Below, piece after piece: positions 3,033-20,630 of a stretch of 24,746 bases of DNA. Within the stretch, counting starts at the first letter, position 1. Every line of letters begins with the position of its first letter. The notes beneath the pieces are model-generated. The model did no database searches. It was not told the origin of the DNA and saw only the letters and a program-made list of their open reading frames with translations. The DNA is from a virus. Location: IMG/VR virus record IMGVR_UViG_3300012000_000119, positions 1 to 24,746 of that record. One strand, given 5' to 3'. The position numbers and the translations under genes were made by a program.

Positions 3033-3800
3033 CTAACCCGCGCTCGCGGCGGCCTTTCTGGCTCGCCGGATAGCCATCTTGACGATTTGCTCGCCGGCCA
3101 ACCGCACGAACGGCAGGCCGCGCCGCTTGGCCTCCTCGCCAAGCCACGTCACGATCTCCGGCATGCGCTTTTCGCACTCGTCTGGGCCCCACTCGTCCAT
3201 CTGCTTGGCCCGTGCGTTGCACGAGCAGTTGGGAGAAGACGTAATGCCGATGAGCGACAGCAGCGCCTTCAGTTGCGTTCCGGGACCAGTTGGCGCCGGC
3301 TCTGCGGCCGTTTGTTCTGGCGCCCCAAATCCGGCTGGCTGCACCAATTCGCCGTATTTCGCCCGCAGCCGTCGATAGTTGGACGTAGTCAATTCAAAAA
3401 ACTTGGCCGTTCCGGATTCGTCGGTCGCTTGAGTGGACGCCTCCATGAGGTCGCGCAAGAACTCGGGCGGCTGCTGCACGGCAGCGGCCACGACGACGTG
3501 ATGCGGAAGGCGAACGGAGTTGGCGGGCATACGCAAGCCTGCTGGTAGTGGTGATTCGCCAGCAACGTCAGCCGGCGGGCCATGTGAAGCCATCTGTTGA
3601 GCGTACAGTGCCTCGACGGCACTCGATAGGTCCGGAAGGTGCGGGTCTGGGGCGCCATTTCCGCGAGGATAAGCGTCGTGTTCCTCGTCTATCGTCCACA
3701 TGTCGCCGTCTTTGACCACGACGCATGTATCTGCTTTTTCCGGATCGACTCCACGCTGTGCGCAGCGGTCCAAAAAGAACTGTTTGTGGCAAGTAATCAT
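3033..3800 (-). CDS. Two-domain Cys-containing phage protein of unknown function
   Basis: This 255-residue protein overlaps the preceding Cys-rich gene by 4 nt (ATGA). The N-terminal part has Cys4, Cys13 and Cys26, followed by an acidic stretch with MWTIDEEHDAYP. A variable linker (50-170) follows. The C-terminal module, residues 172-250, starts GPGTQLKALLSLIGI and has CSCNARAKQMDEWG, with Cys192, Cys194 and Cys209. Those cysteines could bind a metal. It then runs through a helical ending (EEAKRRGLPF, AIRRARKAA). From memory, GPGT-x-LK...CxCN modules recur in environmental phages and some planctomycete genomes without assigned function; I cannot verify that here. It follows the large Cys-rich gene, so the two may act together. 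No catalytic motif is evident. Confidence 0.85.
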   Translation of the reverse strand: MITCHKQFFLDRCAQRGVDPEKADTCVVVKDGDMWTIDEEHDAYPRGNGAPDPHLPDLSSAVEALYAQQMASHGPPADVAGESPLPAGLRMPANSVRLPHHVVVAAAVQQPPEFLRDLMEASTQATDESGTAKFFELTTSNYRRLRAKYGELVQPAGFGAPEQTAAEPAPTGPGTQLKALLSLIGITSSPNCSCNARAKQMDEWGPDECEKRMPEIVTWLGEEAKRRGLPFVRLAGEQIVKMAIRRARKAAASAG

Positions 3801-6400
3801 GGCAGTGGATTCACGTTACACGGCTGTTCGCGGCATTGCCCATCGCAGCAAAAGCGTTTGACGGCGAAAGCAGCGCAGTGGCTAAACCCGTGCCACTGAC
3901 ACGCGGACTTTGTTGGTCCCGGATATCCGTTGCACCGAACGTCTGTGGCCGATATTGTAGCGCACAGAATACCGGCGGCCGCTGCGGACCTTTCAAGAAA
4001 CTCTACGTTGTTGTTGACCGACAATTCCCCGTTGCCATCAAGACATCCGGATGGCACAGACAACGAAGACCCAGCGGGAGGCAGCGGGTTCGACGCCGTC
4101 GCGTAAAACGTGCGACCCATCAGTTTGCATTTATACGTGGGGTTGAACCGATTGGGAGGCCATGCTCCACTCATCAAATTGGCGGGAGGGTTGGCCGGAG
4201 GCAGCGCGTACCCTTCCGGCGCGGCAGAACAATCTGGAGGTTCCGGGCAGCACCCGCACCACCCGTAGGCAGATTGAAGCGAGAATCCTCCACACGACCA
4301 GCAATCAGCGCCGCACTCGACAGGATGGTTTGGCGGATTACACCACGACGAACATGGACTAGAGGTTTCGCGCGAAACCGCTTCTCCACAAGTCCACCAC
4401 TCAACGTAGTAGCCGCAGTCGGCGTCAGTGGCGCACTGTTGCCCGACGCACTGCCCGCCAACGCAGGTTTGGTTAGCGTTGCAGCAAGTCGCGCCACATT
4501 TGTTTTGCGTCGGGCCGCAACAAGGCGGCTCTTCGCACTTGCCGTTGCAACACGTTTTGCCTATTTGCTCACACGGCTTACACACAGTGTTGCAGTGGGT
4601 GCCTACGCGCTGATGGCATGCGGGGCATGCTGCGTTATCGTCGTCCACGCATTGGCCGTTCACGCAACACTTGGTGTCTTCACAACACGAGAATGAATAG
4701 GTGTTAGGAGGGGTGAATGTGCCGCAACAGGTACTGCCGGGCGCACAGTCGTTGGCCCCGTTGACTGGGCAACACAAGCCGGGTCGGCACGATATGCCGC
4801 CCTCGAGCATTGACGTCCCGCCTAACGCTTCGCACAACTCGGGTAGCACGTTCGGAATGCACCCGCCTGCTTGCGGCAGGCAGCAGGGCGGATAGTCCAC
4901 TTCTTCGCAGGTGGCGTTGGGTGGCGGTAAAAAACAAGCGGAATTCTGCGGGTCGCAACAGCAGGGAGCGGGGCATGCGCTGCCGTATCCGTATGCCGCG
5001 CACTCAGGCTTGCACGTTGCGTAAGTGCAGCACACCCCCTCCGGCTTGCAGGGGTCTGCTGGCGTAGAAAACTTGCCTTTCTTTTTCTCGCAATCGCGGA
5101 CACACAGCACCTCACACGACCATTCTCCGCACGGCTCAGTCGGCGGGATGCAACATTGGCCGGGTCCGTCTGGGTCGCACTCTTGACTCAAGGCGCGCGT
5201 ATCGGGGCAGTCAGGGCACGAGATGTCCCAGCATACCTTTGGGGGCGCGCAGTTCTTGTCGTAGAGTACGCGAACGGTAAACGACGTGACCCCGCGAGGT
5301 TTTGTCCACTTGAAACCGCCGTCTTTGGCTCCGCATTCTTTGGAGCGCTGTTTGTCGCACTTGTCGCACTTGCACGGCGTCGGCTGGCAGAAGCCGTTGC
5401 AGCAGTACGGAGCAGATGGGTCTAGTTTCTTGCACTCATCGCTAAGGCCCGGAGTCTTCGAGCACTGCTTGCAGTCGACGCATGGATCAGCCGTACACCT
5501 CCATCCTGTGTCGCGCATGACGATGCTGGACGCGACGACGCGGCACTGCCGATCGAGCATTGGCGCCTTGAGCAGTATCCGGAAAAGACCTTTGCCCGGA
5601 TTGCCGCGCGAGTCGAATTTGAGGCACAGCGAGGACTTGGCGGACTGCACAGAGTAGTGGAAGTCCGACCAAAAAACCGTGCCGAGCGAGCCGCGCGTTT
5701 CCCCAAGAGGAGTCAATGCGCAGTCGGGCTCAATCTTGTCGCGGCACGCTTTCTCGCATTGCCACTTCGTCGCGTACCGGCCTCCGCGAACAAGCCGGCA
5801 ATCGCCGTCGCCGCACAAGTTGCGCGAGCACGAGTACCCCCATCCTGTCGGCTTCCTGTCAGGGCACAGAGCCGGAAACGCTTCGCACATCTCAAGCGGA
5901 ACGCACTCGCAGTTGAATCCGCTGCCGTCTCGGTCAATGCAGATGGTGTCGTCCGGGCACGGAACACAGCGGCCGGCGGCTTCTGCCTCCTCGCTTGTGC
6001 AATCCATGCAGCAGCCGCAGTCGCCTTCTGCGCACGACGGATACTTGTCGCACCCGCACGCATCGTCCGTGCCTGTGCCAAACGCGCCGCACAAATCCCC
6101 GTCGCAATTCTCCCCGTCGAGTGTGCGACAAGACTCCTCGCACTCCTCGCATGCGCCCGTGATCGGGTTCGGCGACGAGCAGCAGCCGCAGTCAAACGTG
6201 TCAAGGCAGCGGCGCTCGCACGCCTCGCGAGACACGTAGCGACCGACCCATGGGCCGTCGGGAGCCAGTTCGGACTGGATGCAATTACCGTAAAGGCACC
6301 ACCAGTCGCCGGTAAGAGGATCGTTCTCGCCGCAACAGCAACCTGCCGCGAGAGAATCGCCCACCTTTAGCAAAGAAGTGCCCGAGACAGCCAGCGGCAT
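3797..6400 (-). CDS. Giant cysteine-rich protein, putative virion surface or adhesion protein
   Basis: This 867-residue protein contains about 123 cysteines by hand count, roughly one in seven, with many CC and CCC runs. Repeated modules can be seen. A CC-x-G-x-C-xxx-PC unit recurs at residues 333-343, 617-626 and 851-861, and relatives occur at 578-585 and 645-651. A C...C...GRY...CExxC module appears at 35-65 and again at 191-219. A CCLP...C..LGGT...C...CC unit spans 506-544. Cys-poor beta-rich islands occur at about 228-300, 355-385 and 755-830. No signal peptide or membrane helix is visible at the N-terminus. The gene starts 3 nt after the previous stop, without a clear Shine-Dalgarno. 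Its place between tail genes suggests a virion component, perhaps disulfide-stabilised after release or metal-binding. The role is inferred. Confidence 0.9.
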   Translation of the reverse strand: MPLAVSGTSLLKVGDSLAAGCCCGENDPLTGDWWCLYGNCIQSELAPDGPWVGRYVSREACERRCLDTFDCGCCSSPNPITGACEECEESCRTLDGENCDGDLCGAFGTGTDDACGCDKYPSCAEGDCGCCMDCTSEEAEAAGRCVPCPDDTICIDRDGSGFNCECVPLEMCEAFPALCPDRKPTGWGYSCSRNLCGDGDCRLVRGGRYATKWQCEKACRDKIEPDCALTPLGETRGSLGTVFWSDFHYSVQSAKSSLCLKFDSRGNPGKGLFRILLKAPMLDRQCRVVASSIVMRDTGWRCTADPCVDCKQCSKTPGLSDECKKLDPSAPYCCNGFCQPTPCKCDKCDKQRSKECGAKDGGFKWTKPRGVTSFTVRVLYDKNCAPPKVCWDISCPDCPDTRALSQECDPDGPGQCCIPPTEPCGEWSCEVLCVRDCEKKKGKFSTPADPCKPEGVCCTYATCKPECAAYGYGSACPAPCCCDPQNSACFLPPPNATCEEVDYPPCCLPQAGGCIPNVLPELCEALGGTSMLEGGISCRPGLCCPVNGANDCAPGSTCCGTFTPPNTYSFSCCEDTKCCVNGQCVDDDNAACPACHQRVGTHCNTVCKPCEQIGKTCCNGKCEEPPCCGPTQNKCGATCCNANQTCVGGQCVGQQCATDADCGYYVEWWTCGEAVSRETSSPCSSWCNPPNHPVECGADCWSCGGFSLQSAYGWCGCCPEPPDCSAAPEGYALPPANPPANLMSGAWPPNRFNPTYKCKLMGRTFYATASNPLPPAGSSLSVPSGCLDGNGELSVNNNVEFLERSAAAAGILCATISATDVRCNGYPGPTKSACQWHGFSHCAAFAVKRFCCDGQCREQPCNVNPLP

Positions 6401-6403
6401 GCG

Positions 6404-7084
6404 CTAACAGGAGACTGTGGAGATGACAGTCTCCTCCTCCTCGCCGCTGCCGATTGCGGCTACGCGAGTTTTAGTGACAACCAGACCGCGATCCGTGAGG
6501 CGCACGTCCGTGACCACCCACAGCCCAGACTCTCCTCCCGCAAAAAACTGGAGTTTCCAAACCAACTCCTGCGCATTCTCTTCCACAAAGAATCGCAGGC
6601 CGGAAGCGTCCGTCTCGGCGCGCACGCGCTTGCCAATGATGGCGTTCGCGGTGCCGTCCACCGTCGCGATGGATCGGTCGGGGCCCTTGATGTTGAGCCC
6701 GACCGCGATCTGGTCGCCGCGAGTGACGGACGTGGTGAAGGAGCCGCCTGCCACATTGAAGGGCGTCTCTGTCTGCTGCGGGGCCTGCGGCGTCCGCAAC
6801 GTCGATGGCTGCTCGGGCCGCGTGCGGTTTTCGCTGGTGTTGCCGCGCGGCTTGCGGTAGTACGGGTCGTCGTCGCGGTAGTCGAAGTTGGTCAGTTCGT
6901 GCTTGCGCACGCCGCGCGTGACGTACCGCATCGACTGCGGCGTGGTGTCTACCTGCTGCGGAGACACCTTCTCGCTGACGCCGATGGCACCGAGAATCTG
7001 CGCCACGCGATTCGCGGCGTCAGGAGCCATGCCGGCTGCGCGCAGGGCGTCCGCCAACTGTCCTGTCTTGTCTGCGTCAAGCAT
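6404..7084 (-). CDS. Unknown virion-cluster protein
   Basis: This 226-residue protein starts MLDADKTGQLADALRAAGMA and overlaps the end of the nozzle C-terminal gene by 8 nt, so coupled translation is likely. Residues 1-40 look like a short helical pair. Residues 60-110 are polar and Arg/Pro/Thr-rich, probably a linker. Residues 110-226 alternate in a beta pattern (GLWVVTDVRLTDRGLVVTKT) and look like a small beta sandwich. There is one Cys near the C-terminus and no membrane segment. The helix-linker-beta plan and its location directly after the tail nozzle would fit a tail accessory or fibre-anchor protein, but I do not recognise the family. Confidence 0.85.
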   Translation of the reverse strand: MLDADKTGQLADALRAAGMAPDAANRVAQILGAIGVSEKVSPQQVDTTPQSMRYVTRGVRKHELTNFDYRDDDPYYRKPRGNTSENRTRPEQPSTLRTPQAPQQTETPFNVAGGSFTTSVTRGDQIAVGLNIKGPDRSIATVDGTANAIIGKRVRAETDASGLRFFVEENAQELVWKLQFFAGGESGLWVVTDVRLTDRGLVVTKTRVAAIGSGEEEETVISTVSC

Positions 7085-8579
7085 CGCCGATGCCGTAAAT
7101 GTTGAGCGCGTAAAGCACGACGGGATCGTGGTTCTTGCGCGCGCCGACCAACTCTACGGCGACGCTCCGATCCGACGAGTTTACGTCGTCCATTGTACGG
7201 CCGGCGTATAGGGCTCTCGATACTCCAGTGTCCGCTCCGAACTCCGTTGTGAAGCGCCCCATATCGAGGCGCGCCGCAGCATCCACAACATCGTGCGCAA
7301 AGCCTGTCCCGCGATCACGGGCCGCTACGTTGGGGCGTGGGTGCGGGGCGTTGTTGTAGTACAGGCGCATCGACAACTCGCACGCGGACGGCTGCGGGGC
7401 GTACGACAGGCTGATCGCTCGCGACATCTCCGACCCAGCGGCAGGCTCCTGCACGTCCGTGAGATACGACACGCTGCCGCTCTTGTACCGGTACGTGGGG
7501 AACAGAGGCGTGTCGGCAGTGGTCGAAGACGCAATGAAGGTGCCGGTCGCGCGCGTGCCACCGGAAGGCGGCGGGTCAATCAGCAGGTCGCCGCTCGCGT
7601 AGCCGTTGCCGGTGGACATAATCCACAGGCCGGGCACCTGCCCCTCGCCGTTGATGGTGGCCTGCACCTTTCCGCCGCTGCCGCCCGACGCATAGACGTT
7701 GGGTGGCGTGCGATAGCCGCTGCCAGAGCCGGTAAGTGTGACGGACGTGATCGCGCCCCTGCCGAGATCGACGCTGCCCTCGTTGAGGACGTATACGCCC
7801 CCCGTCGCCGCATACACGCAGCGGTAGTCGCCGTTAGTCAGCAAGACGTGCGCCCCGCCTGCGATGCTCTGCGGGTACATCTCGACCCACCACGTTTTCG
7901 TTTCCAGCGAGTAGCACAGGACGCGCGTGGGGCGGCCCGACGACTCGTCTTCTCGGAACGCCACAAAGCATCGCAGCGTGCGGTGCTTGGGGTCCACGAT
8001 CAGTGAGCACCACTTCGACTTACCGAAGTCGATGCGCCCAGTAAACATGTCGTCGATCGCTTCGGACAGCGGCTCGATCTGGCCCGTCGGAGCAATGCCG
8101 TACACGCCGTACTGATCCATGACGTAGCACGCGCCGCCGTGAATGTCCCAGCAACGCTGGTTCAGTGCGCCCCTGTAGCCGATGGGCGTTACCTGTGCGT
8201 CGAGTACAGGCTGTCGCACAAACGTGATGGAGTAGGCGTGCCTGTGCTGCATTGCCAGCAGCGTCGAGCCGAACGGAATCAGCGCCGTGATGGAGTCGGC
8301 GTCCTTCGCGTTCTGCTGCAAGATTAGTTGGTTGCTCTCGGGGACGCTCTCCGGCTCATCGACTTCGGAGTAGTACAGCGTGTTCGGCTCGTCGCCGCTG
8401 GTGTCCACGCCGTACCAGTGCCGATCTTGGAATCGCACGACGACCGCCTTGTCGTCCGGCGGAGGCGTAAAACGATTGGCATTGATGTCGCCATTAGGCA
8501 GGACAATCGGCATTGCCGCGTAGCCCGGACGGTCGGGGTCGCGCAACTCGTCGTCAGTGAGGTCGTCGTAGAATGGCAT
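7077..8579 (-). CDS. Tail nozzle C-terminal part (beta-propeller), split protein
   Basis: This 500-residue protein shows the pattern I associate with the beta-propeller half of short-tail nozzle proteins (the P22 gp10 / T7 gp12 functional class). Visible marks are DDLTDDELRD at 5-14, a PP-containing strand and RHWYGVD at 53-59, TLYYSEVDEPESVP at 67-80, and DSITALIPFGSTLLAMQ at 95-111. Blade-like strands follow (CYVMDQYGVYGI, VLCYSLETKTWW). Residues 275-335 carry GSGSGY and GNGY repeats like those in the upstream gene. It begins mid-domain for this fold and starts one base after the upstream stop (TGA-C-ATG), with no Shine-Dalgarno. It therefore looks like a continuation of the preceding product rather than a stand-alone gene. 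Family assignment is by pattern; the split is inferred. Confidence 0.8.
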   Translation of the reverse strand: MPFYDDLTDDELRDPDRPGYAAMPIVLPNGDINANRFTPPPDDKAVVVRFQDRHWYGVDTSGDEPNTLYYSEVDEPESVPESNQLILQQNAKDADSITALIPFGSTLLAMQHRHAYSITFVRQPVLDAQVTPIGYRGALNQRCWDIHGGACYVMDQYGVYGIAPTGQIEPLSEAIDDMFTGRIDFGKSKWCSLIVDPKHRTLRCFVAFREDESSGRPTRVLCYSLETKTWWVEMYPQSIAGGAHVLLTNGDYRCVYAATGGVYVLNEGSVDLGRGAITSVTLTGSGSGYRTPPNVYASGGSGGKVQATINGEGQVPGLWIMSTGNGYASGDLLIDPPPSGGTRATGTFIASSTTADTPLFPTYRYKSGSVSYLTDVQEPAAGSEMSRAISLSYAPQPSACELSMRLYYNNAPHPRPNVAARDRGTGFAHDVVDAAARLDMGRFTTEFGADTGVSRALYAGRTMDDVNSSDRSVAVELVGARKNHDPVVLYALNIYGIGDA

Positions 8580-8580
8580 G

Positions 8581-10554
8581 TCAGGAGGACGCCAGTATTT
8601 GGTCGGCCGTAATGGTGCTGCTCGTGACGGAGGCTACGCCAGAAGTACTGCTAGACACGATGCAGCGGTGCTCTGAAAACAGCGACCTGCGCCCGCCCAG
8701 CCCACCATCGGGATACACGTCCAAAGCGCGGGAGGCTACGTACGGGATGGCGCACGTCGGGCGCTCGCAATCGAGCGTGTATCCACCGGGAATGGTCGTC
8801 CACTGTGTCGAAACGGTAGTGCCGTTGAGCAATTTCTGGTTGCGCCCCTGCCACTGATAAGACAGGGTGCCCGGACCAGTCGCCTGTACGGTGACTCGGT
8901 AGTACGGGTAGGGATTGAACTCTTTGCCGATGTATCGAGTGGCCTGCGGTTGCTGGGTAATCACGATGGCCGACGTGGGCGGTGGCGGTCTGGTGCCGCC
9001 GCCGTCGCACGGAGGAGAGTCGCGCATCCACATTTTGTAGTACCACTCGCCGCAGTCGCCTCCGCCGCCATTGTCTCCGCCAGTGTCTGTGGACCCCTCT
9101 GTCACGGAGAGGCGCGCCACTCGATACAGCGTGGTGGCTTGATTGCCTGTCGTGCGCCACAGTTCGATGTGGGACGCTCTTCCGACAGGCGGAGGCGCCG
9201 TCCATGCGATCCGCGACGTGCCGTCGCCGGCGTCGACTTCGGTCACAGGAGACAGGCTGCTGGGGATCGGGCCGCCCAAGTCTTCGGAAGTGTTGTCTAC
9301 GTAGCGGTAGTAGCACTGATACTTGCCGCGCAGGTGCGGCCTAGCAACCGCAAACACCTCCGCTCCTCCGGCCACCACCTCAACTTTCGGTGCGTCCTTG
9401 TAGCCGCCGCCACCGTTCTCAAGCGTCACGGTGTCGATCTTGCCGTCCTTGACCGTGCAGGTGGCATATGCACCAAATCCAGAATCGGACGTGATCTTGA
9501 TCTGCGGCACGACGAGATAGCCGCTGCCCGGCTCGACAATCTTGATCTCTTTGACGCTGTAGCGCGGAGCGGCGGCCGACGATGTGTTGGACTCGGCCTC
9601 AAGTATCGCGTCACGATCTCTGCTGGCCGTAACCCAGCGCTGCGACTCGACGTCCCACGACTGGGCCGCCTGTATCGTGACGGTCACTTTCTTCTTGTAA
9701 CCAGTCCCGCGCTTGGCCGCTGACACGCTGTCAATGCGCCACGCGCCAACAAGGGTCTGGAAGCACACTGTCTGTCCGGGACCAACGACGTTGCACTCGC
9801 AGGTGATCGCATTTCCGCCAAAGCGCACGCGAGCCTTCGCCCCAGTGCCGGTCGAACCCGACACGCTGTACGGGATTTTGACGTTGATGACCGAAAACGA
9901 CGACGGATTGTCTGGGCAGATGGCGTATCGAGTGTCTGTGTACTCGTACGATCCGTCGGCGTCGATCGGCAGGTCTACCCACCCCCACGTTTGAAAGTAC
10001 GTCTTGTAGAGGGGAGGGAAGTCCACCTCGTCTTCGTACGGAGGGCCTTCGATTACCGACCAGTACCGCAGTTGCGTGTTGTCTGGTGGCTCGCCGCCAG
10101 CCTCAGGCACATCGAGCACTGCCTCCAGCACGGCGCCCTTGCCGTGCGTGTCGCTCAAGGCGGCCGATGGCGGCTGCGTGTAATACTTCCCGCCATTCTT
10201 GACCAGCACTTCGCTTACTGCCGCCTGCGACAGATAGGCAGCGGCCGACGCGCTCCGGAATCTGTCAGGCGCCACATCAGAGGGCGTGGAGAAAGTCACC
10301 TCCGGCGGCGAGTAGTACACGGCTCCGGGCTGCTGCACATCCACGCGGGCCACGTAAAAGGCGTTGGCCGAGTCAGCCGTGACCTGCGGCGCCGCTGTCG
10401 GCGCATCCATGCCGGCGTCGATCGCAACGCCAGCGCCGTCCCATCGCGCGGGCCGCACGCCATGTCCCTGCACGACGATGACCTCGCCATGACGGCTCTG
10501 TGCCATAGACACTGGGTAGTCGGCGGAAAAACGATCAGAAATCACGGCGCACAC
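8581..10554 (-). CDS. Tail nozzle middle part with GxGY beta-repeats and Ig-like domain
   Basis: This 657-residue protein starts at GTG (10552-10554), with GGAG just upstream. A Met at residue 17 is an alternative start. It overlaps the upstream gene by 13 nt. Residues 17-58 (GEVIVVQGHGVRPARWDG, then APTAAP) and 408-490 (YQCYYRYVDN, SLSPVTEV, HIELWRTTGN) match segments expected in the N-terminal half of a single-chain nozzle. Between them, 110-400 is a block of glycine-tyrosine beta repeats (GGKYY, GTGY, GSGY, GGGGY). After residue 490 come a Gly/Cys linker with four tryptophans or cysteines and an Ig-like domain (about 527-655, TLSYQWQGRNQKL). The coding sequence ends TCC-TCC-TGA-C, directly before the next start. 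Likely a structural tail protein. Confidence 0.8.
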   Translation of the reverse strand: MCAVISDRFSADYPVSMAQSRHGEVIVVQGHGVRPARWDGAGVAIDAGMDAPTAAPQVTADSANAFYVARVDVQQPGAVYYSPPEVTFSTPSDVAPDRFRSASAAAYLSQAAVSEVLVKNGGKYYTQPPSAALSDTHGKGAVLEAVLDVPEAGGEPPDNTQLRYWSVIEGPPYEDEVDFPPLYKTYFQTWGWVDLPIDADGSYEYTDTRYAICPDNPSSFSVINVKIPYSVSGSTGTGAKARVRFGGNAITCECNVVGPGQTVCFQTLVGAWRIDSVSAAKRGTGYKKKVTVTIQAAQSWDVESQRWVTASRDRDAILEAESNTSSAAAPRYSVKEIKIVEPGSGYLVVPQIKITSDSGFGAYATCTVKDGKIDTVTLENGGGGYKDAPKVEVVAGGAEVFAVARPHLRGKYQCYYRYVDNTSEDLGGPIPSSLSPVTEVDAGDGTSRIAWTAPPPVGRASHIELWRTTGNQATTLYRVARLSVTEGSTDTGGDNGGGGDCGEWYYKMWMRDSPPCDGGGTRPPPPTSAIVITQQPQATRYIGKEFNPYPYYRVTVQATGPGTLSYQWQGRNQKLLNGTTVSTQWTTIPGGYTLDCERPTCAIPYVASRALDVYPDGGLGGRRSLFSEHRCIVSSSTSGVASVTSSTITADQILASS

Positions 10555-11111
10555 AACTCCGATCCAGCGACGGAGGGCGGGTACACAGACGAGCCGGCAG
10601 AGCCGCTACGAAATGCGCTGAGTTTCCCGGAGCCTTCGCACAGCGCGTTGGCATTGACCGCGAACGACCACGATGAGGTCGTGGCACGCCCGCCGCGAAG
10701 CGTCGAGTACAGTTGCGTCGGGTCTGGCGTTGGCGGGTCTGGCGGCGGCTCGACCACGTCCACGACGTACCGCATCGTGTAACTGGCGCTGACCGCATCG
10801 GCGGCCTCCAGTTGCGGCTCGATTGGCCGCTCCGGCTCTGCGCCGTACGCAGGCCCCTGCAAGGCCACGAGCGTTCCGTCGTCCCGCAAACACAGCAGCC
10901 AAGACTGGCCGTCCCGCGAATACGGATGGCAGTCGACAAGGCCGGCGCTGGAGCCGGAGGACGGCGCGAATGCGATGGGCCACATGCCGCCGCGCGTGTA
11001 AATCTGGCCCGCGATGTCACACGCCAGATTGACCTGCTCGACAGCGGCACCAACAGGAAGCGCGAACGGGCTCGCGTTCGTTATGAGTCCGCCCCACGCG
11101 CCCTTGCTCAT
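10542..11111 (-). CDS. Tail nozzle N-terminal part, split protein
   Basis: This 189-residue protein starts MSKGAWGGLITNASPFALP and continues with GAAVEQVNLACDIAGQIYTR-GG. That is the pattern of the extreme N-terminus of podovirus nozzle proteins: a 'no complaints' opening of Gly, Asn, SPF, LP and a conserved N-G-x-R strand. Residues 60-100 add blade-like strands (SWLLCLRDDGTLVALQG). A Pro-rich linker (VEPPPDPPTPDP) at about 120-131 precedes a Ser/Ala-rich tail. The start lies in the TGACGCATG context, with GGAG eight bases upstream, 3 nt after the adaptor stop. It is too short for a full nozzle, and the following two genes carry the expected remainder. I saw no slippery heptamer in its overlap with the next gene, so separate translation is more likely. 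Confidence 0.75.
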   Translation of the reverse strand: MSKGAWGGLITNASPFALPVGAAVEQVNLACDIAGQIYTRGGMWPIAFAPSSGSSAGLVDCHPYSRDGQSWLLCLRDDGTLVALQGPAYGAEPERPIEPQLEAADAVSASYTMRYVVDVVEPPPDPPTPDPTQLYSTLRGGRATTSSWSFAVNANALCEGSGKLSAFRSGSAGSSVYPPSVAGSELCAP

Positions 11112-11114
11112 GCG

Positions 11115-12038
11115 TCATGCTCCAGTATCCGGAGCGGACGGCGAGTAGTAGCCCAGCGAGCGCGGCGATCCTGCGTAGGGCGCAACGGCGCTCTCCGGAT
11201 ACCGATCGACGCCCAGCCGGCGACCGCTCATGGGCGCGATCACATCCTGCTCCATCGCCATGCGCAGGTCGCGCTGGTAGACGGCGACGGCACCCTCGAC
11301 GTTCTTGCCTTGCAGGCGCGCCGCCCACACTTCAGCAGCGCTCAGAAGCGCCGTGAACATGTTTTCGGACACGTCGAGGTAATCGCTGACGACCGTCTTC
11401 GCGCCCTGCGGGGCCGTGCCGACCATGCTGCCGGCGAGACCCAGAATCTCCTGTGCCGTGTACGGATACACGCCCGACAGGCCTTCTGGGTAGTTGGCGC
11501 TTGTCCCGTACCGCTTGACGGCTCCGGGAGCGCTCGTCGCATTGAGCGAGCCGTTGCGGCAGATGGACTCATAGCCCATGAAGCGCAGCGGCATCGGCCG
11601 GCGACGGTACGTGATGTAGTAGTTGCTGCCGGCCGGCGCGGCAGGGAAGGTGCCGGCCACCATGATCTTCCAGCGGTCGGCGTGCGCGGTCGAGCGCGAA
11701 ACCGTCCAGTAGATCGGCTCGCCGCTGCCAACGGCTTGGTTCTCGTATCGCCGCCATTCGGACGGCGTGATGTAGGCAGTGACGATCGACGGGTCCGGCG
11801 GGATAAGCGCGTCCACGTTGTTGAGGTCCGCCGGCAGCAGGAACTGCTTCCCGCCAGAATCGGCGATGGCCGCCGGAAGGGTCGTTTCTGTGACGTGCCA
11901 CAGCCAGTCTTTGGCGTGGTACACGTCGCGGTAGGCATGGTGGACGGCCGCCCGGAGGAGGCGGTGTTCGGCGTCCTGCGCCCCGCCGCCGGTCGTGTTC
12001 ATCAGATATTCGACAACGTCTTGGGCTGCGTAATACAT
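11115..12038 (-). CDS. Head-tail adaptor candidate
   Basis: This 307-residue protein starts MYYAAQDVVEYLMNTTGG and is preceded by GAGGA with a four-base spacer. The N-terminal 60 residues look helical and contain HHAYRDVYHAKDWLWH, a feature I associate with adaptor proteins of short-tailed phages (the P22 gp4 / T7 gp11 functional class): helical start, aromatic W/H-rich turn, then a beta region (FLLPADLNNVDALIPPD, YYITYRRRP). The last 100 residues return to helix (FTALLSAAEVWAARLQGK). Its position just before the nozzle N-terminal gene fits an adaptor between portal and nozzle. The family call is from pattern and context, not from a database, so portal-ring adaptor is likely but not certain. 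Confidence 0.7.
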   Translation of the reverse strand: MYYAAQDVVEYLMNTTGGGAQDAEHRLLRAAVHHAYRDVYHAKDWLWHVTETTLPAAIADSGGKQFLLPADLNNVDALIPPDPSIVTAYITPSEWRRYENQAVGSGEPIYWTVSRSTAHADRWKIMVAGTFPAAPAGSNYYITYRRRPMPLRFMGYESICRNGSLNATSAPGAVKRYGTSANYPEGLSGVYPYTAQEILGLAGSMVGTAPQGAKTVVSDYLDVSENMFTALLSAAEVWAARLQGKNVEGAVAVYQRDLRMAMEQDVIAPMSGRRLGVDRYPESAVAPYAGSPRSLGYYSPSAPDTGA

Positions 12039-12098: not shown

Positions 12099-14483
12099 TC
12101 ACGGCCAATTGTTGACAGGCGGCAGATTTACGCACGGCTCCGGAGAAAACCGCACGCTAATGCTCATGTTGGACGGCTGCGAGCCCGTCTGTCCGCTAAT
12201 TGTGATCCGGTCTCCGACTCCGACATTTTGGATTACGTACACTGCCGCCTTGTCGTCAAATCCCACAAGTTGATCGCGCGGCACGGAGGCGGTTCCGCGC
12301 CACACCATGTGATTGGGTGTTGTGCCTGTGGACGCGATTGCGATGGTCAAATAGCCTTGTGCGGTGGCCTGAATCCACACGTCGTCTGAGTTGCCTGCCA
12401 CGCCAGTCAGCGCGCCCAGCGCAAGATGTAGAGTGTTCTGCGAGCGGCTGTTCGCCGGCCACGCTGGCGACAGAAAAAAGGGCGTGGCGTCTGGTGTGCT
12501 GCCGACCGTGTAATCGACGACGCGCATGACGCCGCCAGCCACAACAAGCGACTGTACCGTCAACTCCACGCCGCCGTGATGCACAACGTAGCGCGTTCCC
12601 GGAGACGCAAAGAAACACAGCCGGTGCGACTGACTTGTGCCTGAAGACTGAGTTACTATCCCGAGTTGTTCGCCGCTGGTATTGTACGCAATCACCATCG
12701 CGTCTGTGACGCCAGTTGTGACAGTGAAGGTAATGATGCCCGGACGTGTAAACGAGAACCATCTACCTGCGGCGTACGGATCATTGTTTGTTGGCTGCGA
12801 CCATCCGGCCGGAGCATTGACAAGGAACGCGCCAGACGGCGACGTGACGTTGTTCGGCATCGCAGCAAGCGAGTTGACCGTGACGGCACCGCGCGGGTAG
12901 TGAAACGGGCCAATACCGGCAGAGCCTTCCGCCGCTACGCGAAAAAGATACGCCTGCGCTGCTTGCAGTCCCGTGATTGTGTAGTAGGTCGTCGTGTGGT
13001 CGTCTTTGTCCACCGTGATCCATGACCCAGTGGCAGAATACGTGCCGTTTGCATTGACTGTCGCCGTGCGATATTGCACGACGTAGTTGGTTGCCGGAGC
13101 GCCCGACGGAGACGCAGCCGGATAGTATTCCAGACGAGTCGCTGTAGAGCCGTGCGTGATGCGCGCCACGACGACTGGGTCATAATCTGTCACGCGCGTT
13201 GAGGTGACGTAAGCGTATGGCCCTTCGGCGCCCACGATTCCGCGCGCCTTGACGCGGACGCGATACGTATTACCGGGAAGGTATGCGTAACGATAATACT
13301 CGTGAGAGTAGCCCGGAATAGCCAGAGGCGCTTGCGCTGGAAGGACGTGATCTGGCGACCACGTTACCCCTCCGTCAGCAGAATAGTTGAGAACGTATTG
13401 CGTAGCCGAAGGAACTGGAAGCCAATACAGCCAGATTGAGCCGCCGTTGGCTGTCCCAAATGCCTCCAACTCTGCCGGCGCGGCCAATCCAGAACCAGCA
13501 GGCGTGATTGGGCCGACTTGCACGATCGGCCCCGCGCCTGCGGTATTCACGCCGGCGACGTACAGGTAATACGCAGTTCCGTTTGTCAGTCCGGAGACAG
13601 ACGCGGACGTCAACGAAGCGTCAACATCTCCCCACAGAGTTTTGGCGGCAGTCGGATTGGTGTTATGCCAAATACGGTATGCACTCGGGGCCGCGCATCC
13701 TGTCGCTAAAGGAGCAACCCACGCTAGCGAGGCGCCTCCACCAAGCGGCGTTGCTGACAGGTTGCGCACGGCGCCCGGCGCAGACGTCGGGGCGGTGTAC
13801 GTAGCGCTTTGAGTGCTGTACGAAGATATAGCCAAGGCCGACTGAGCCGCCACGCGAAACCGATACACAGAGCCGCAAACCAATCCCGATGCAGGCGTAA
13901 ACAAACGCGACGACACGGGCGAGCCCATTGTTTGCCAAGTGATCGAGGAGCCGTTGACCCCAAACTGAACGACGTACGACAACTCGTCTAAAGTAGCGCC
14001 TCCGGTGGTTGCGGGCGCATCCCAATAAATGACAAGTTGCCCCGATTCAAGAACGGCTCGCGCGTTGGTGGGCACTCCGGGCGTGCCTAGTGGTTGGATA
14101 AGATTGCTGCTGGCGCTGTATGCGGTTGGCCCAGATGCCGTTACTGAGGCCACGCGAAAACGATATCGCGTGCCATTTGTCAATCCGCTGATTATGGCCG
14201 TAGACGCGGTAAGAATCGTGGCTACGGAAGTTGTCCACGTCACTCCGTCATCGCCGGATTGCTGGACGGTGTGAGTCAGAGCCGGCTTTGTGGTGGCGAT
14301 CGTCCACGACAGCGTGACAGAAGCATCGCCAGCGATGCCGGTCACGTTGTACGGCGCGTCGTTTGTTTGAGGCGGCGGCGTGCTGGCGCCATAAACCAAA
14401 GACGCGCCCAAGTACATCTTGGACACCGGCGCTGCGCCGAGCCGTAATGTTTGCTGCGCGGCAGCGCCAAGACGAACAGGCAT
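12099..14483 (-). CDS. Multi-FnIII-domain tail/adhesion protein
   Basis: This 794-residue protein opens with a short phage attachment-type sequence: LGAAAQQTLRLG and then KMYLGASLVYG at 22-32. Five fibronectin type III domains follow, at about 43-130, 134-230, 234-328, 335-430 and 436-535. Each shows the late-strand signature (GLTNGTRYRFRVASV, GLTNGTAYYLYVAGV, LPGNTYRVRVKA, GLQAAQAYLFRVAA). Residues 550-794 form one or two Gly/Thr-rich beta sandwiches (RWFSFTRPGIITFTV, GDRITISGQ) that resemble pre-peptidase or carbohydrate-binding folds. The ATG overlaps the preceding stop as TAATG. FnIII repeats in phage tails usually mediate weak glycan or surface binding, so a fibre or adhesion role with its upstream fibre partner is likely. 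Confidence 0.88.
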   Translation of the reverse strand: MPVRLGAAAQQTLRLGAAPVSKMYLGASLVYGASTPPPQTNDAPYNVTGIAGDASVTLSWTIATTKPALTHTVQQSGDDGVTWTTSVATILTASTAIISGLTNGTRYRFRVASVTASGPTAYSASSNLIQPLGTPGVPTNARAVLESGQLVIYWDAPATTGGATLDELSYVVQFGVNGSSITWQTMGSPVSSRLFTPASGLVCGSVYRFRVAAQSALAISSYSTQSATYTAPTSAPGAVRNLSATPLGGGASLAWVAPLATGCAAPSAYRIWHNTNPTAAKTLWGDVDASLTSASVSGLTNGTAYYLYVAGVNTAGAGPIVQVGPITPAGSGLAAPAELEAFGTANGGSIWLYWLPVPSATQYVLNYSADGGVTWSPDHVLPAQAPLAIPGYSHEYYRYAYLPGNTYRVRVKARGIVGAEGPYAYVTSTRVTDYDPVVVARITHGSTATRLEYYPAASPSGAPATNYVVQYRTATVNANGTYSATGSWITVDKDDHTTTYYTITGLQAAQAYLFRVAAEGSAGIGPFHYPRGAVTVNSLAAMPNNVTSPSGAFLVNAPAGWSQPTNNDPYAAGRWFSFTRPGIITFTVTTGVTDAMVIAYNTSGEQLGIVTQSSGTSQSHRLCFFASPGTRYVVHHGGVELTVQSLVVAGGVMRVVDYTVGSTPDATPFFLSPAWPANSRSQNTLHLALGALTGVAGNSDDVWIQATAQGYLTIAIASTGTTPNHMVWRGTASVPRDQLVGFDDKAAVYVIQNVGVGDRITISGQTGSQPSNMSISVRFSPEPCVNLPPVNNWP

Positions 14484-15553: not shown

Positions 15554-16095
15554 TACTTCTTCCTCTTCCAGTGCGGGACGATTCGGTCCTTGACTTTCTC
15601 GACGGCCTCCTCGCGACGCATGCGAGGGTTCTGCTTCAGTTCCTTCTTGACGTGCTCTCGCAAAATGCGCGGGTTGATGTCGACCTCTTTGGGAGGGCCC
15701 TTCTGCGGCGGCACGTAGTCAACGATCCCATGCACCTCTAAGTCGCGCTTCTTGGCTACCCGCAGCACGTCGCCAGCCGAATCCACCCACGCCTCTGGGT
15801 CGAGGTGGCCGCGCTTGTCGGCTATCCCGCCCATGTAGAACCGCCCCGATGTATTTATGCCTGCGGCCTTCGCCTCGCGGACCATCCACTCCGCCTGCTT
15901 CTTGGGAAGTCCGTCCAGCCACTGGCCCGCCAAGCGGCCCTCCATGAACGAGCGGTCGGTTCCTCGCGTGCCCGGAGGGTGCTGGAGGGCGCACATTTCC
16001 GCGAAACGGGGCGACTGGCCTGCCGCCACCATGCGCTCGTAGTGCTTCTGCACGGCCGGCCCTGCGGCCTCGATGTCGGGCGGGTACTGCGTCAT
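15553..16095 (-). CDS. Unknown protein downstream of portal
   Basis: This 180-residue protein overlaps the portal stop by 4 nt (ATGA). The N-terminal half contains helical segments and HPPGTRGTDRSFMEGR at about 39-54, then a QAEWMVREAKAAGINTSG segment. The Lys/Arg-rich C-terminal half (VKKELKQNPRMRREEAVEKV, ending HWKRKK) is basic and helical and could bind nucleic acid. There is a single Cys and no membrane segment. Immediate coupling to the portal gene suggests a head-completion, packaging or head-neck role. No known domain is recognised. Confidence 0.82.
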   Translation of the reverse strand: MTQYPPDIEAAGPAVQKHYERMVAAGQSPRFAEMCALQHPPGTRGTDRSFMEGRLAGQWLDGLPKKQAEWMVREAKAAGINTSGRFYMGGIADKRGHLDPEAWVDSAGDVLRVAKKRDLEVHGIVDYVPPQKGPPKEVDINPRILREHVKKELKQNPRMRREEAVEKVKDRIVPHWKRKK

Positions 16096-18110
16096 GGAGA
16101 CAACTCCGGAGGCACGCTAGGAGGCGGCCCTTCGGCCGGCATGGCGTCTGGCGGCGGCGGAGCGGGAAGGCCCGGAGGAGGCCCTCCCTGAGGCCCAGCC
16201 GGCGGCATGGGTGGCTGCGGCGGGGGCGGTGGCGGGATGAGGTACGGGCGCGCGTCGATATCGAGGCTGTCCGCCCAGTCCGAGATGAGGGCGTTGAGCG
16301 GGTCCACGACGCCCATCGGCACGAGCCCTTGCAGGATGGGGCCAAGCGTCTGGAGCGCCGCCTGCATCTGCTCGACGCGCGTGGCCTTGTTCGGCTTGCG
16401 CGCCGAGCCAGCCTCGATGCGGTAGTCGAACTCACGGGCAATGGCGTCGGGGTCCATCGTGGCTACGTGCTGCGCCCACGAGGCCGCGCCGAGCGGGCCA
16501 AGAATGGGCTCCACGTCCTGCGGCTCCAGCAGCCAGCGGGCAGCGAACGCCTCACGGCGAGCCAGCAGGCTCATGGCGTCTTCGAGCCGGTTCGCCATGT
16601 CGTCTGGGCGCACCGACAGTTGCTCTGCCCGCACGCTGGCTTCTGTGGCACTGCGCATCTGGGAACTGGTCATGGCGTACGCCAGTTCCGTCAGGCCGAC
16701 GCGCTTGTCGAACATGTCCGTGACGGCTTGGATGATCTTCCAGAGTTCCGGCGACACCTCCGGCATCTGGAACACGGAGATGAGGTCGTTGACGCTGCGC
16801 CCCAGCGTCTCGCTGATCTCCACGATCTTGAAGCCCTTCTCCGACTGCGCGAGTATCTGGTCTTTGATGTCTTGGTCCGCAGCCTTGCTGACGCCAAGCA
16901 TCGTCTCGCAACTGACGGCTACGCGCTGCGCCAAGAAGGACATCGCGAAGTTCAAGAACCGCAACTCGCCAATGCCCGGCTTGATGTGGCTGATGGGCCA
17001 CACGTATCCGGGCTTGCGGTGGAAGTCGAGCGGCACGAACGGCCACCCGTTGGGCTCTGCCCAGAACGGGATCGGCCACTGCACGGCGCGGAAGAGCGCC
17101 TCCGGGACGCCAGTCTCGCCTTCGACCGGCTGCTCCAGCATCGAGGGCGGCATGTTCAGCGGGAAGTTCACGCCCTCGCACACGACGAGGTAGCAGTTCT
17201 CTCCGACGCTGTCGAAGGCTCCGACCAGTTCCTTCGGGGCGTCCTTGAGACGGTCGCCCATGCCGGTCTTGCTCCAAATCTTCCAGTACGTGACGAGTTC
17301 GTTGCTCTTCCCGACGCGGCGACCCTTATACGGGTGCTCCTCGTTCATGAAGATTTGCTCGTCCACTTCCTGACCGACCGGACGCGCGCCCTCCAAGTGG
17401 CCCTTGAGTTGGTCCCTGTCGAGCCCGTACTTCTGCGCCACTACGTCGATCGGATGCACGCAGCGGCGAGCGCACCACGTAATGTCCTCTATCTCGGTGG
17501 CGTCAGGGTCGAGCGCAAGGTTGTCCACGCTGTCGGCGAACGACCCGACGATGCGGTAGTTGGAGCCCGGAATCGTGACGAGTTCCGTCCACCACACGCC
17601 CATGCCCTTGATGATGCCCTCGTCCACGACGCGCCGGCTGTGCGTCTTGAGGTCGAGTTCGTTGGGCGTGTAGTTCAGGTAGCGCTCCATCAGAAGCGAC
17701 ACGAGACGACGCACCTCCGTGCGCTGCTGCGTCTCCATCGCAGCCTGCTGGTACGCCATCATCGACTGCTCGTCCACCACGCCCAGCGTCTCCGGAGAGA
17801 CGAACGGGTACATGGTGGGCGACACCGTGCGCACCGGATTGCGGTGGTAGATGACGCTGCCGAACAACTTGACCGCCTCGAACACGCGATTGATCTGCAT
17901 GCGAAACGCAGGCGGAGCAATCGTGCGGTTGTAGCCGTGCTCGTGGCGGGCGTAGGTGTCGCGCCAGAACCAGTTGTGCGGGCCGTCGAAGAACGACATG
18001 GCCTCGCGGGCATCCTCCGTGAAGGGCCGCTTGTGCTTGAGCGCCAGTTCGATCTTCTTGAGCCACCCATGCGCTATCGCGCGCAGGGCATCTTCACCGG
18101 TTGGTTCCAC
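16092..18110 (-). CDS. Phage portal protein
   Basis: This 672-residue protein lies directly downstream of the terminase and is the size expected of a P22-type large portal. The start is GTG at 18108-18110, with AGGAAG seven bases upstream. The gene overlaps the preceding small gene by 17 nt. Visible portal-like features are an N-terminal helical region with FWRDTYARHEHG at 48-59, extended alpha/beta domains with many Trp and Pro, a WPIPFWAEPNGWPFVPLDF beta segment in the middle, and LRFLNFAMSFLAQRVAVSCE in a later helix. The last 51 residues (from about 622) hold 27 prolines, an unusually long proline tail. Portals form the dodecameric channel at the packaging vertex, bound by the large terminase during packaging. 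The call rests on position, length and pattern. Confidence 0.92.
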   Translation of the reverse strand: MEPTGEDALRAIAHGWLKKIELALKHKRPFTEDAREAMSFFDGPHNWFWRDTYARHEHGYNRTIAPPAFRMQINRVFEAVKLFGSVIYHRNPVRTVSPTMYPFVSPETLGVVDEQSMMAYQQAAMETQQRTEVRRLVSLLMERYLNYTPNELDLKTHSRRVVDEGIIKGMGVWWTELVTIPGSNYRIVGSFADSVDNLALDPDATEIEDITWCARRCVHPIDVVAQKYGLDRDQLKGHLEGARPVGQEVDEQIFMNEEHPYKGRRVGKSNELVTYWKIWSKTGMGDRLKDAPKELVGAFDSVGENCYLVVCEGVNFPLNMPPSMLEQPVEGETGVPEALFRAVQWPIPFWAEPNGWPFVPLDFHRKPGYVWPISHIKPGIGELRFLNFAMSFLAQRVAVSCETMLGVSKAADQDIKDQILAQSEKGFKIVEISETLGRSVNDLISVFQMPEVSPELWKIIQAVTDMFDKRVGLTELAYAMTSSQMRSATEASVRAEQLSVRPDDMANRLEDAMSLLARREAFAARWLLEPQDVEPILGPLGAASWAQHVATMDPDAIAREFDYRIEAGSARKPNKATRVEQMQAALQTLGPILQGLVPMGVVDPLNALISDWADSLDIDARPYLIPPPPPPQPPMPPAGPQGGPPPGLPAPPPPDAMPAEGPPPSVPPELSP

Positions 18111-18450
18111 TTGGCTGCTTCCTCTGGAGCGCGACCTGCTCTGTCAACGACGCGATCTGCGCCATCATGCTTTCCAACTTCTTGAGTTGGGCAGTCTGCG
18201 GCGCGTATTCCCAACTGCCCCACTGGCGCCAGTCGGCGTTCTCTTGAAGACCCGGATCGTCCTTGTGGCGGACGGATGGCTTCTGCTCGAATCCGTTGAA
18301 CGGCGTGAAGACGAGGACGTTGACGGTGTTGACGCCCGGACGGCCGATCACCCAGCCGACACTCGGGTCGTTGCAGTTGAGCGGGTCGCTGTAGTAGTAG
18401 ACGCAGTCGCCCGGACGGACGGCCGGAGGACTAAAGGATTCGACTTCCAT
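18094..18450 (-). CDS. Small SH3-like/coiled-coil protein between terminase and portal
   Basis: I take the ATG at 18448-18450 (118 residues, starting MEVESFSPPAVRPGDCVYYY). The frame is open further upstream to 18552, but that extension runs through the terminase gene. AGGAG lies seven bases before this ATG. The first 20 bases overlap the terminase end, and the last 17 overlap the portal start. Residues 10-50 (RPGDCVYYYSDP, VGWVIGRPGVNTVNVLVF) look like a small beta barrel. Residues 85-110 (LKKLESMMAQIASLTEQVAL) look like a coiled coil. A small gene of this plan between TerL and portal is plausible as a head-assembly or portal-associated factor, but I cannot name it. Confidence 0.83.
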   Translation of the reverse strand: MEVESFSPPAVRPGDCVYYYSDPLNCNDPSVGWVIGRPGVNTVNVLVFTPFNGFEQKPSVRHKDDPGLQENADWRQWGSWEYAPQTAQLKKLESMMAQIASLTEQVALQRKQPSGTNR

Positions 18451-20137
18451 ATTGGGCTCCTGACTGGGGACCGAGATAGATGAAGTCGTCGGCTTCGGCC
18501 GACAAGCGCTTGCGGCGCTTACGCATCCACTCCACGTACCATGGCTCCGCACCAGTCTCTAGTTTGGGCTTGTGGTAGCGAGGTCGATAGGCACAGAGGT
18601 ACTCAAGGCACTGGCAGGCATGCACTTCGCCGCGCGTATTGGGCTGGTCCGTGACGATGTACGAGCCGGCCACCAACTGGGTCTTCTTCTTGTAGCGCTT
18701 CAGTTCGCGCTCTAGGTCCGGAACCGAACTGCGCAGGACGCGCAGGGTGGGGGTGCCCTCCGGCCGGATATGCAGGTAGTTCTGGACGGCCGCCATGCGG
18801 GCCTGCACGTCGTCGCAGCCGGCCAGAAAACTGTGCCCCGTCGTCTGACTGGCGACCTCCCGCGACTTCAGTTGCTCCGTGTACAGTTCGACAGGGAGCC
18901 GCCCAGAGCCGATCTCGCGCAGCCGGCCGCCGTGCATGTCGATGAGGAAGGCATAGAACGCCTGCCCCTTGCACTTCTCCGCCATCTTCTCGCCGAACGT
19001 GATGGCGTTGCACTGCCGGATATAGAGTTGGTCGTAGATCAGCAGCATCGACTCGTCGGGCGGGACCGCCGCAAAGAGCGCCGCCGTGACGGCGTGTCCC
19101 GGATCGATCGCCACGTAGCGGCACCAGTCCGGCGGGACGACGTTGTTGGGCAGGTCGCCCCTGTCGTAGCCGTGAACGTGGATCGAGTAGGTGGGATAGC
19201 ACAGGATCGAGTCGCTGATGAACTCGCCTTCCGCGCGCATGCGCAGTACGTCCACGCCGAGTGCGGACCACCGCTCAATGTTCTTGCGCTTCTCTTCGGC
19301 GTCGATGTGCGGGTTGTCGAGGAACCGCAATTGGTACTTCACGATGTCGGGATTCTCTCGACCGATTTCGACCTCCTTGTCGGCGCGCTCCGCCAGACCA
19401 AGCAGCGCGTCGTTGCGGCTGTGCGGCATGGCCGACCAGCACAGGACGCCCTTGCGATCCGAAAGGCGGGCCTGCATCTCCGGCACCCACGAGTCGCCGT
19501 TGTTCACGTCCTCGTCGATGTGGACTCTGTTGGCAGAAAAACCTTGCGGCGGCTCTCCCTCCGACGAGAAGAAGTAGATTTGCCACCCATTGACCAACTG
19601 ACAGGACTGGATGTACCGAGCGGACTTTAGAATCCACGACTTCTTGGACACCATGCGCGGCGGGATGAGCGGCGGGGCCGGCTTGGCGTCCTTGCTGCGG
19701 TGCGCGTCGGTGGTGGGGTCGTAGGCGCGCCACTCGCCGGTCTGCTCGTCCTTGATGATCTTGAACGCACCCGCCATGAACAGGAGCGGGTACACCACGA
19801 GCCCGATGTGCTTCCAATCCTTGCCAACAACGACGAGGATGCCGTCCTTCTCGGGGTACTTACCGTGCGGATCGCGCCCAGTCACGGCACGGGCGTCCTC
19901 CACGAACGTGCAAAGCGATTTGCCGGAGCGGTTGCCGCCAAGCACGAGGACTTCACTCGCCTTGCACTGATGGACTTCCTCCTGCTGGCTCGTCGGTCGG
20001 TATAAGCGCAGTGCTTCGATGCGGCGGCTCGCCAGTTCCGCCTGCATCTCCTTCAACTCGTTCTGCTGGAATGTGCCCAAGCGACTGACCGACGGCAGCG
20101 GCGAAATCTTGGGGGGTTTGCGGCGCGACTTGGACAT
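18431..20137 (-). CDS. terL: Terminase large subunit
   Basis: The terminase large subunit is the ATPase/nuclease motor that packages DNA through the portal. The 568-residue product has a Walker A motif (GGNRSGKS, 67-74), a Walker B motif (VHIDED, 205-210) and an RNase H-type nuclease domain: AIDPGH with Asp345 as a likely metal ligand, FLIDMHGG with Asp400, and an acidic EVHACQCLEYL segment near 504-514. The ATG at 20135-20137 has AGGGAG nine bases upstream. A start at Met31 is possible but less well supported. The first 185 nt overlap the preceding zinc-ribbon gene in another frame. The next gene begins 20 nt before this stop. All key motifs of a functional terminase are present. Confidence 0.97.
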   Translation of the reverse strand: MSKSRRKPPKISPLPSVSRLGTFQQNELKEMQAELASRRIEALRLYRPTSQQEEVHQCKASEVLVLGGNRSGKSLCTFVEDARAVTGRDPHGKYPEKDGILVVVGKDWKHIGLVVYPLLFMAGAFKIIKDEQTGEWRAYDPTTDAHRSKDAKPAPPLIPPRMVSKKSWILKSARYIQSCQLVNGWQIYFFSSEGEPPQGFSANRVHIDEDVNNGDSWVPEMQARLSDRKGVLCWSAMPHSRNDALLGLAERADKEVEIGRENPDIVKYQLRFLDNPHIDAEEKRKNIERWSALGVDVLRMRAEGEFISDSILCYPTYSIHVHGYDRGDLPNNVVPPDWCRYVAIDPGHAVTAALFAAVPPDESMLLIYDQLYIRQCNAITFGEKMAEKCKGQAFYAFLIDMHGGRLREIGSGRLPVELYTEQLKSREVASQTTGHSFLAGCDDVQARMAAVQNYLHIRPEGTPTLRVLRSSVPDLERELKRYKKKTQLVAGSYIVTDQPNTRGEVHACQCLEYLCAYRPRYHKPKLETGAEPWYVEWMRKRRKRLSAEADDFIYLGPQSGAQYGSRIL

Positions 20138-20630
20138 TGATGAACGCTCCCTGCATGCTGAGTGCGATGCTGCTTAGACGCTTGTCGAGTTCCGACTCCA
20201 ACTCAGCGTCCGACCACTGGGTCAGTGGCTTCTTGGCGCCGCCCAGTTCGGTGTTCTTGGTGACCAACCGGACGATGCCCTCCAGCAGTTTGGTGCGATG
20301 GGCTCCGCCCGGAGGTGCGTCGAAATACTGCTTGACCATCATGGCGGCGAACCCGCCCGTGCCGCCGAAATACTCCATGAGCCGTTCCAGCAACTCGCTG
20401 GAGTGCGGGATGTTCGCGCCACCACGCTGCGCTGCCTGCGTGAACTGACGCAGGGCCGACGCCTCGATGGCCTTTGTGTCGCGCTCCTTCTGCTTGGCCT
20501 TCTTGCCCCTGTTCACTTTAGCGCGGCACACAAGGCAGCGCGTGTCCCACTCGCCGGACTTCTTGCGGCGGTAGTGGGCTGTGGTTAGAGGGGCGTCGTG
20601 GCCGCAGTCGATGCAGACGCGCGTTGGCAT
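19953..20630 (-). CDS. Zinc-ribbon protein, possible small terminase subunit
   Basis: This 225-residue protein starts MPTRVCIDCGHDAPLTTAHY and has a CxxC-x22-CxxC zinc ribbon (Cys6, Cys9, Cys32, Cys35). A basic stretch follows (KKAKQKERDTK). The middle is helical (SSELLERLMEYFGGTGGFAA, KKPLTQWSDAELESELDKRL), and the C-terminus is polar and Pro/Gly-rich. AGGTGA lies five bases before the ATG in the TGACGCATG context. The last 62 codons lie inside the terminase large-subunit reading frame, an unusually long 185-nt overlap. The position directly before TerL makes it the best small-terminase candidate in the window, but a zinc ribbon is not a usual TerS feature. A DNA-binding regulator or nuclease accessory is possible. 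Confidence 0.75.
   Translation of the reverse strand: MPTRVCIDCGHDAPLTTAHYRRKKSGEWDTRCLVCRAKVNRGKKAKQKERDTKAIEASALRQFTQAAQRGGANIPHSSELLERLMEYFGGTGGFAAMMVKQYFDAPPGGAHRTKLLEGIVRLVTKNTELGGAKKPLTQWSDAELESELDKRLSSIALSMQGAFINVQVAPQTPQDFAAAVGQSLGHIPAERVEGDAGGTGEPPHRSTALIPTDEPAGGSPSVQGE

Follow-up and report, generated by a model that had tools for sequence, protein, structure and literature searches.

The locus and its three nozzle genes

The DNA analyzed here, referred to as the window, is a linear IMG/VR virus record of 24.7 kb (IMGVR_UViG_3300012000_000119, 24,746 nucleotides) with its main genes on the minus strand. Three consecutive genes of this strand, g1, g2, and g3, correspond to one podovirus nozzle, with its N-terminal part in g1, its middle part in g2, and its C-terminal part in g3, as is supported by colinear homologues and by the fold of a single-chain relative. 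The nozzle is a central channel protein of short-tailed phages, and the solved structures with a match here show it as a single chain. The window presents a known protein in a new arrangement, the unusual element of which is the second break, between g2 and g3. The original prediction, made from the sequence alone, had read the nozzle as split over three open reading frames (ORFs); these ORFs lie on the minus strand where it placed them, and the peptides that it quoted are present in the products.

The first gene, g1 (10542–11111, minus strand; 189 residues), encodes the N-terminal chain, which comprises an N-terminal strand region, what is probably blade 1 of a β-propeller, and a variable C-terminal tail of ~70 residues behind a conserved core. 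The second gene, g2 (8581–10545, minus strand), has 654 residues when started at the GTG at 10545 and 657 when started at the GTG at 10554; the former start, which overlaps the stop codon of g1 as GTGA, is the more likely one. Its product would contain blade 2, the repeat-type nozzle domains, a Fn3/Ig-like last nozzle domain, and an extra C-terminal tail. The third gene, g3 (7077–8579, minus strand; 500 residues), would supply the other propeller blades together with one repeat-type insert and the platform part at the C terminus. As read from the sequence, junction A is the GTGA overlap of the g1 stop and the g2 start (10542–10545, minus strand), and junction B (8577–8583, minus strand) consists of the g2 stop TGA, one base C, and the g3 start ATG, that is, TGACATG. 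Relative to g1, g2 lies in the −1 frame, and relative to g2, g3 lies in the +1 frame, with stops in between. GGAG sequences are located upstream of g1 and g2.

One-, two-, and three-gene homologues

A first scan yielded two near-identical three-gene loci (L002 and L003, which together with the window form the window group) and five loci at 57–61% identity with g2 and g3 joined in a single ORF of about 985–1060 residues. Wider scans added many loci, and profiles of five segments were mapped on all ORFs to assign gene states. All counts refer to 79 non-redundant rows of relatives, with the window included among the three-gene group: 6 rows are single-gene, 67 are two-gene (g1 followed by a joint g2+g3), 4 are three-gene, and 2 were not assignable.

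The central evidence comes from the single-gene proteins. On one such ORF of ~970 residues, the window-group profiles of g1, g2, and g3 match at 7–94, 97–554, and 552–976, respectively. The order is kept and the overlap is almost nil in all six single-gene relatives, with E values of 3e-8 to 1e-10 for g1, 1e-70 to 1e-80 for g2, and 1e-110 to 1e-127 for g3. Colinear matches at these E values are not due to chance; hence, the three products correspond to one protein. Related phages with the same parts in one gene, for which the original prediction had proposed to look, are thereby at hand. One polypeptide per nozzle subunit is found only in this clade (L125–L134), the window having three ORFs instead. 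Together with the two-gene intermediates and the nozzle fold described below, these homologues bear out the claim of one nozzle encoded by three consecutive genes. The accompanying claim that a nozzle of three chains would be unusual holds as well, the unusual part being g2/g3, which is rarely split; at g1/g2, the split is normal in the clade (71 of 79 rows).

Outside these metagenomic relatives, similarity is scarce. Among GenBank phages, no relative of g3 was found, g1 showed no more than weak local similarity (E 0.6) to PA11-type Pseudomonas phages, and g2-type queries retrieved only short repeat domains common to phage structural proteins. Pfam and NCBIfam gave no match for g1, g2, or g3. 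Since g1 matches no Pfam, PHROG, or NCBIfam model, it would usually be left as hypothetical in annotation. One scan of bacterial and archaeal genomes found no relatives, and the host is therefore not assigned. No description of a split nozzle was found in the open-access literature, most subscription journals lying outside this search.

The nozzle fold of a single-chain homologue

The single-chain homologue L127 was modeled from 53 sequences with a mean predicted local distance difference test (pLDDT) score of 80.4 and compared by Foldseek and VIA-align. It matches the nozzles of Pa223, VP1, SU10, phicrAss001, P22, Sf6, and other podoviruses, with Z scores over residues 29–957 of 29.1 for Pa223, 27.3 for VP1, 26.3 for SU10, and 24.5 for P22 gp10. 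WD40-type propellers match residues ~40–815, a range that runs through all three parts. By sequence alone, the family profile matches the Pa223 tail chain 9nwi_Y inside the g3 part (E 1.7e-6) and, weakly, the VP1 nozzle gp16 (E 0.9); g3 itself matches PHROG 3287 (E 1.8e-6). Projected onto the L127 model, blade 1 would lie in g1 (strands 53–90), blade 2 and the inserted domains in g2 (strands 101–539), and the remaining blades in g3. The rows of g1 scattered when added to the structure alignment, and g1 was therefore left out of it.

When g2 of the window is modeled alone, its conserved part reaches a pLDDT of ~80, and its tail is not resolved (pLDDT about 21–31). The matches of this model are limited to single domains (Z up to 8.8 over ~95 residues) and to propeller fragments of ~40 residues, as expected if g2 is a fragment. 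A separate full-length fold for each product, which would have spoken against a shared nozzle, is hence not seen for g2, the modeled part of which matches no whole nozzle or propeller.

The break between g1 and g2

The break at site A is split in 71 of the 79 rows. Its junctions show a 4-nucleotide stop/start overlap in 35 and a 1-nucleotide overlap in 17 relatives (52 of 71 together). Sixty of the 71 junctions place g2 in the −1 frame and eleven in other frames, and four relatives (L009, L010, L043, and L090) carry another gene between g1 and g2. The g1 tail exceeds 60 residues in 19 of 71 rows and 1,000 residues in four.

In L069, L070, L074, and L075, g1 carries about 1,100 extra residues, which are largely Fn3 repeats; the tail of L070 matches Pfam fn3 with an E value of 2e-86, and that of L074 has a possible LamG-like end (weak match, E 0.04). 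In L010, one Fn3 domain is cut between the g1 tail and the next gene (3882–4838 and 4842–5531). The fn3 profile matches the g1 tail with its positions 2–42 (weak, E 0.014) and the next gene with positions 42–81 (E 2e-8), and the halves are separated in frame by TAG-ATT-ATG; readthrough or a Fn3 domain made of two chains are both possible. In L043 and L009, the next gene begins within a Fn3-like stretch in another frame.

The break between g2 and g3 and the extra g2 tail

A split at site B is confined to the window group and L029; elsewhere, g2 and g3 form one gene. L029 groups with the two-gene relatives L012 and L014 (100/100 support), and the tree, hence, needs two changes at site B. The g2/g3 split is rare and arose twice. 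The junction TGACATG is identical in the window, L002, and L003 and, independently, in L029. No further relatives of L029 with the second split were found.

Both lineages carry an extra g2 tail after the last shared segment, of 179–180 residues in the window group and 205 residues in L029, which begins with a Gly/Pro-rich linker. In the window, this tail (8584–9115, start approximate; minus strand) continues into a domain that is read as Ig-like from its sequence pattern, with no Pfam match and the low pLDDT given above; it is absent where g2 and g3 are fused. Among viral contigs, the window tail was found only in L002 and L003. A common origin of the window and L029 tails, or of these with the middle gene of L009, L010, and L043, was considered because of a WQGR-like motif seen by eye and was dropped, as a profile search made no connection.

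Fused relatives usually have 7–25 residues at site B, and about 100 extra residues in frame in L061, L064, L065, L073, and L090; site B therefore accepts inserts with or without a break. A long tail accompanies the split in 4 of 4 rows as compared with 5 of 75 rows without it (Fisher P 8e-5), the rows being related and only two events standing behind them.

Selection and mosaic divergence

Purifying selection on g1, the g2 core, and g3 is strong, and all pieces are maintained. Among the window, L002, and L003, the ratio of nonsynonymous to synonymous substitution rates (dN/dS) is 0.06–0.27 for g1, 0.06–0.07 for the g2 core, and 0.02–0.05 for g3; in the g2 tail, it amounts to 0.13–0.22 in the Ig part and 0.31–0.55 in the linker. 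Between L002 and L003, synonymous divergence is 0.37 in the Ig part and 0.08–0.10 in the g2 core and g3, as expected if the Ig segment was exchanged by recombination. Between the window and L003, the values are 0.06 in the Ig part and 0.51 in the g2 core. Within 8584–10545 of the window, the Ig part and the g2 core, hence, have different closest relatives among L002 and L003, and this mosaic divergence inside g2 suggests module exchange.

A probable nozzle of three assembled chains

The three genes probably encode one tail nozzle as three noncovalently assembled chains. Each chain would be translated from its own start by stop-start coupling, at GTGA for g1/g2 and at TGACATG for g2/g3, and such coupling would provide near-equal amounts of chains that fold together as neighbors. 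One seven-bladed propeller would be completed from three chains, and six copies would form the nozzle. One break would separate blade 1 from blade 2, the other would lie where the chain leaves the inserted nozzle domains, and the free C terminus at each break would carry accessory domains, namely, a short tail on g1 and the Ig-like domain, presumably surface-exposed, on g2.

Several points weigh against this reading. Residues 1–36 of the L127 model are of low confidence, g1 is weakly conserved beyond ~110 residues, and the blade boundaries were placed by means of secondary structure and published descriptions instead of coordinates. The g2/g3 split is known from two lineages only, and g3 lacks an evident Shine-Dalgarno sequence, which in turn fits reinitiation after g2. 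The window, moreover, is a genome fragment, and a second nozzle gene may lie elsewhere in the genome.

It is unlikely that the nozzle consists of g2 and g3 only and that g1 is a separate small tail protein, which became fused to the nozzle in one clade. Most relatives indeed have g1 as a gene of its own, in some cases set apart by other genes, and under midpoint rooting the tree places the single-chain clade within the two-gene rows. However, the propeller of the L127 model, with propeller matches starting at residue ~40, includes residues of the g1 part, and T7, P22, and SU10 have solved nozzles that consist of a single chain. In addition, the g1 profile matches the N terminus (residues 15–52) of gp38, the single-chain tail protein of Pseudomonas phage PA11, with an E value of 4e-8 (one-sequence search).

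The original prediction left the choice between multipart assembly and recoding, and the former is favored. Recoding, by a −1 shift at g1/g2 and a +1 frameshift at g2/g3 (TCC-UGA-C), would produce some full-length nozzle next to truncated forms ending at the early stops. The −1 frame of 60 of the 71 g1/g2 junctions and the +1 frame of both g2/g3 junctions would agree with it, as would the g3 frame, which stays open over about 15–52 codons ahead of its ATG; a C after UGA, moreover, makes for a weak stop context. However, stop/start overlaps are the rule at g1/g2, and the −1 bias arises because ATGA and TAATG overlaps give that frame. Of 60 g1/g2 overlaps, only 2 contain a slippery X-XXY-YYZ site, the P-site codons TCC and AAC (the last sense codons at g2/g3) re-pair poorly in +1, and neither the eleven rows in other frames nor the four relatives with an intervening gene fit a programmed shift. 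Recoding as the joining route, hence, finds little support and appears quite improbable. That the split reflects gene decay or an error of sequencing or assembly, as the origin of all loci from metagenomic contigs and the fragmentary window might suggest, is rejected as very improbable, since the junction is the same in three contigs with many sequence differences, L029 has it independently, and all parts are under purifying selection.

The coincidence of the break points with mounted accessory domains suggests that chain breaks are tolerated attachment sites, and their use as mounting points for host-contact domains is plausible. A display strategy, in which the nozzle gene is split at two propeller-flanking sites so that a free C terminus carries exchangeable adhesion modules (Ig-like domains or Fn3 arrays of >1,000 residues) on the tail tip and the propeller is reassembled from two or three coupled chains, is put forward tentatively, at slightly less than even chances.

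Comparison with known systems

The podovirus nozzles P22 gp10, SU10 gp17, T7 gp12, VP1 gp16, and Pa223 9nwi_Y share with this system the fold of the fused homologue, a propeller with inserted distal domains, and a gene downstream of the portal. They differ in being one polypeptide, whereas the nozzles described here are encoded by two or three genes and, at the second break, have gained a domain. The muzzle protein gp44 of phicrAss001 is likewise matched by L127 (Z 25), but it is a single chain of about 1,350 residues and carries its added mass inside the chain, not on a free C terminus. Accessory Ig-like and Fn3 domains are found on other structural proteins of phage virions; here, in contrast, it is the nozzle that receives the domain, at a position inside the chain that the gene split has turned into a terminus. 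The two-gene nozzles of uncultured podoviruses described in this work have the separate g1 and the GTGA/ATGA overlaps in common with the window, whereas only two lineages have g2 and g3 as separate genes. This natural series of one-, two-, and three-gene nozzles offers a direct test of the positions at which a β-propeller tolerates a cut without losing its ability to assemble, and of whether phages exploit these cuts to attach host-binding domains to the tail tip.

Neighboring genes

All neighboring genes described here are on the minus strand. The nozzle genes lie downstream of a confirmed portal gene of the P22/SU10 type (16092–18110; PHROG 156, E 4e-16; Pfam P22_portal, E 2e-6), with an adaptor in between that is deduced from position. 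This presumed tail adaptor of 307 residues (11115–12038) is located immediately upstream of g1 and is conserved there in relatives; family and PDB searches gave no match for it. Between the portal region and the presumed adaptor lies a protein of 794 residues with four Fn3 domains (12099–14483). An 867-residue protein (3797–6400) contains 123 cysteines (14%) with 17 CC pairs and has no Pfam or PHROG match. A terminase-like protein is encoded at 18431–20137 and is adjoined by an Endonuclease VII/HNH-like gene (19953–20630; PHROG 1035, E 3.8e-6).
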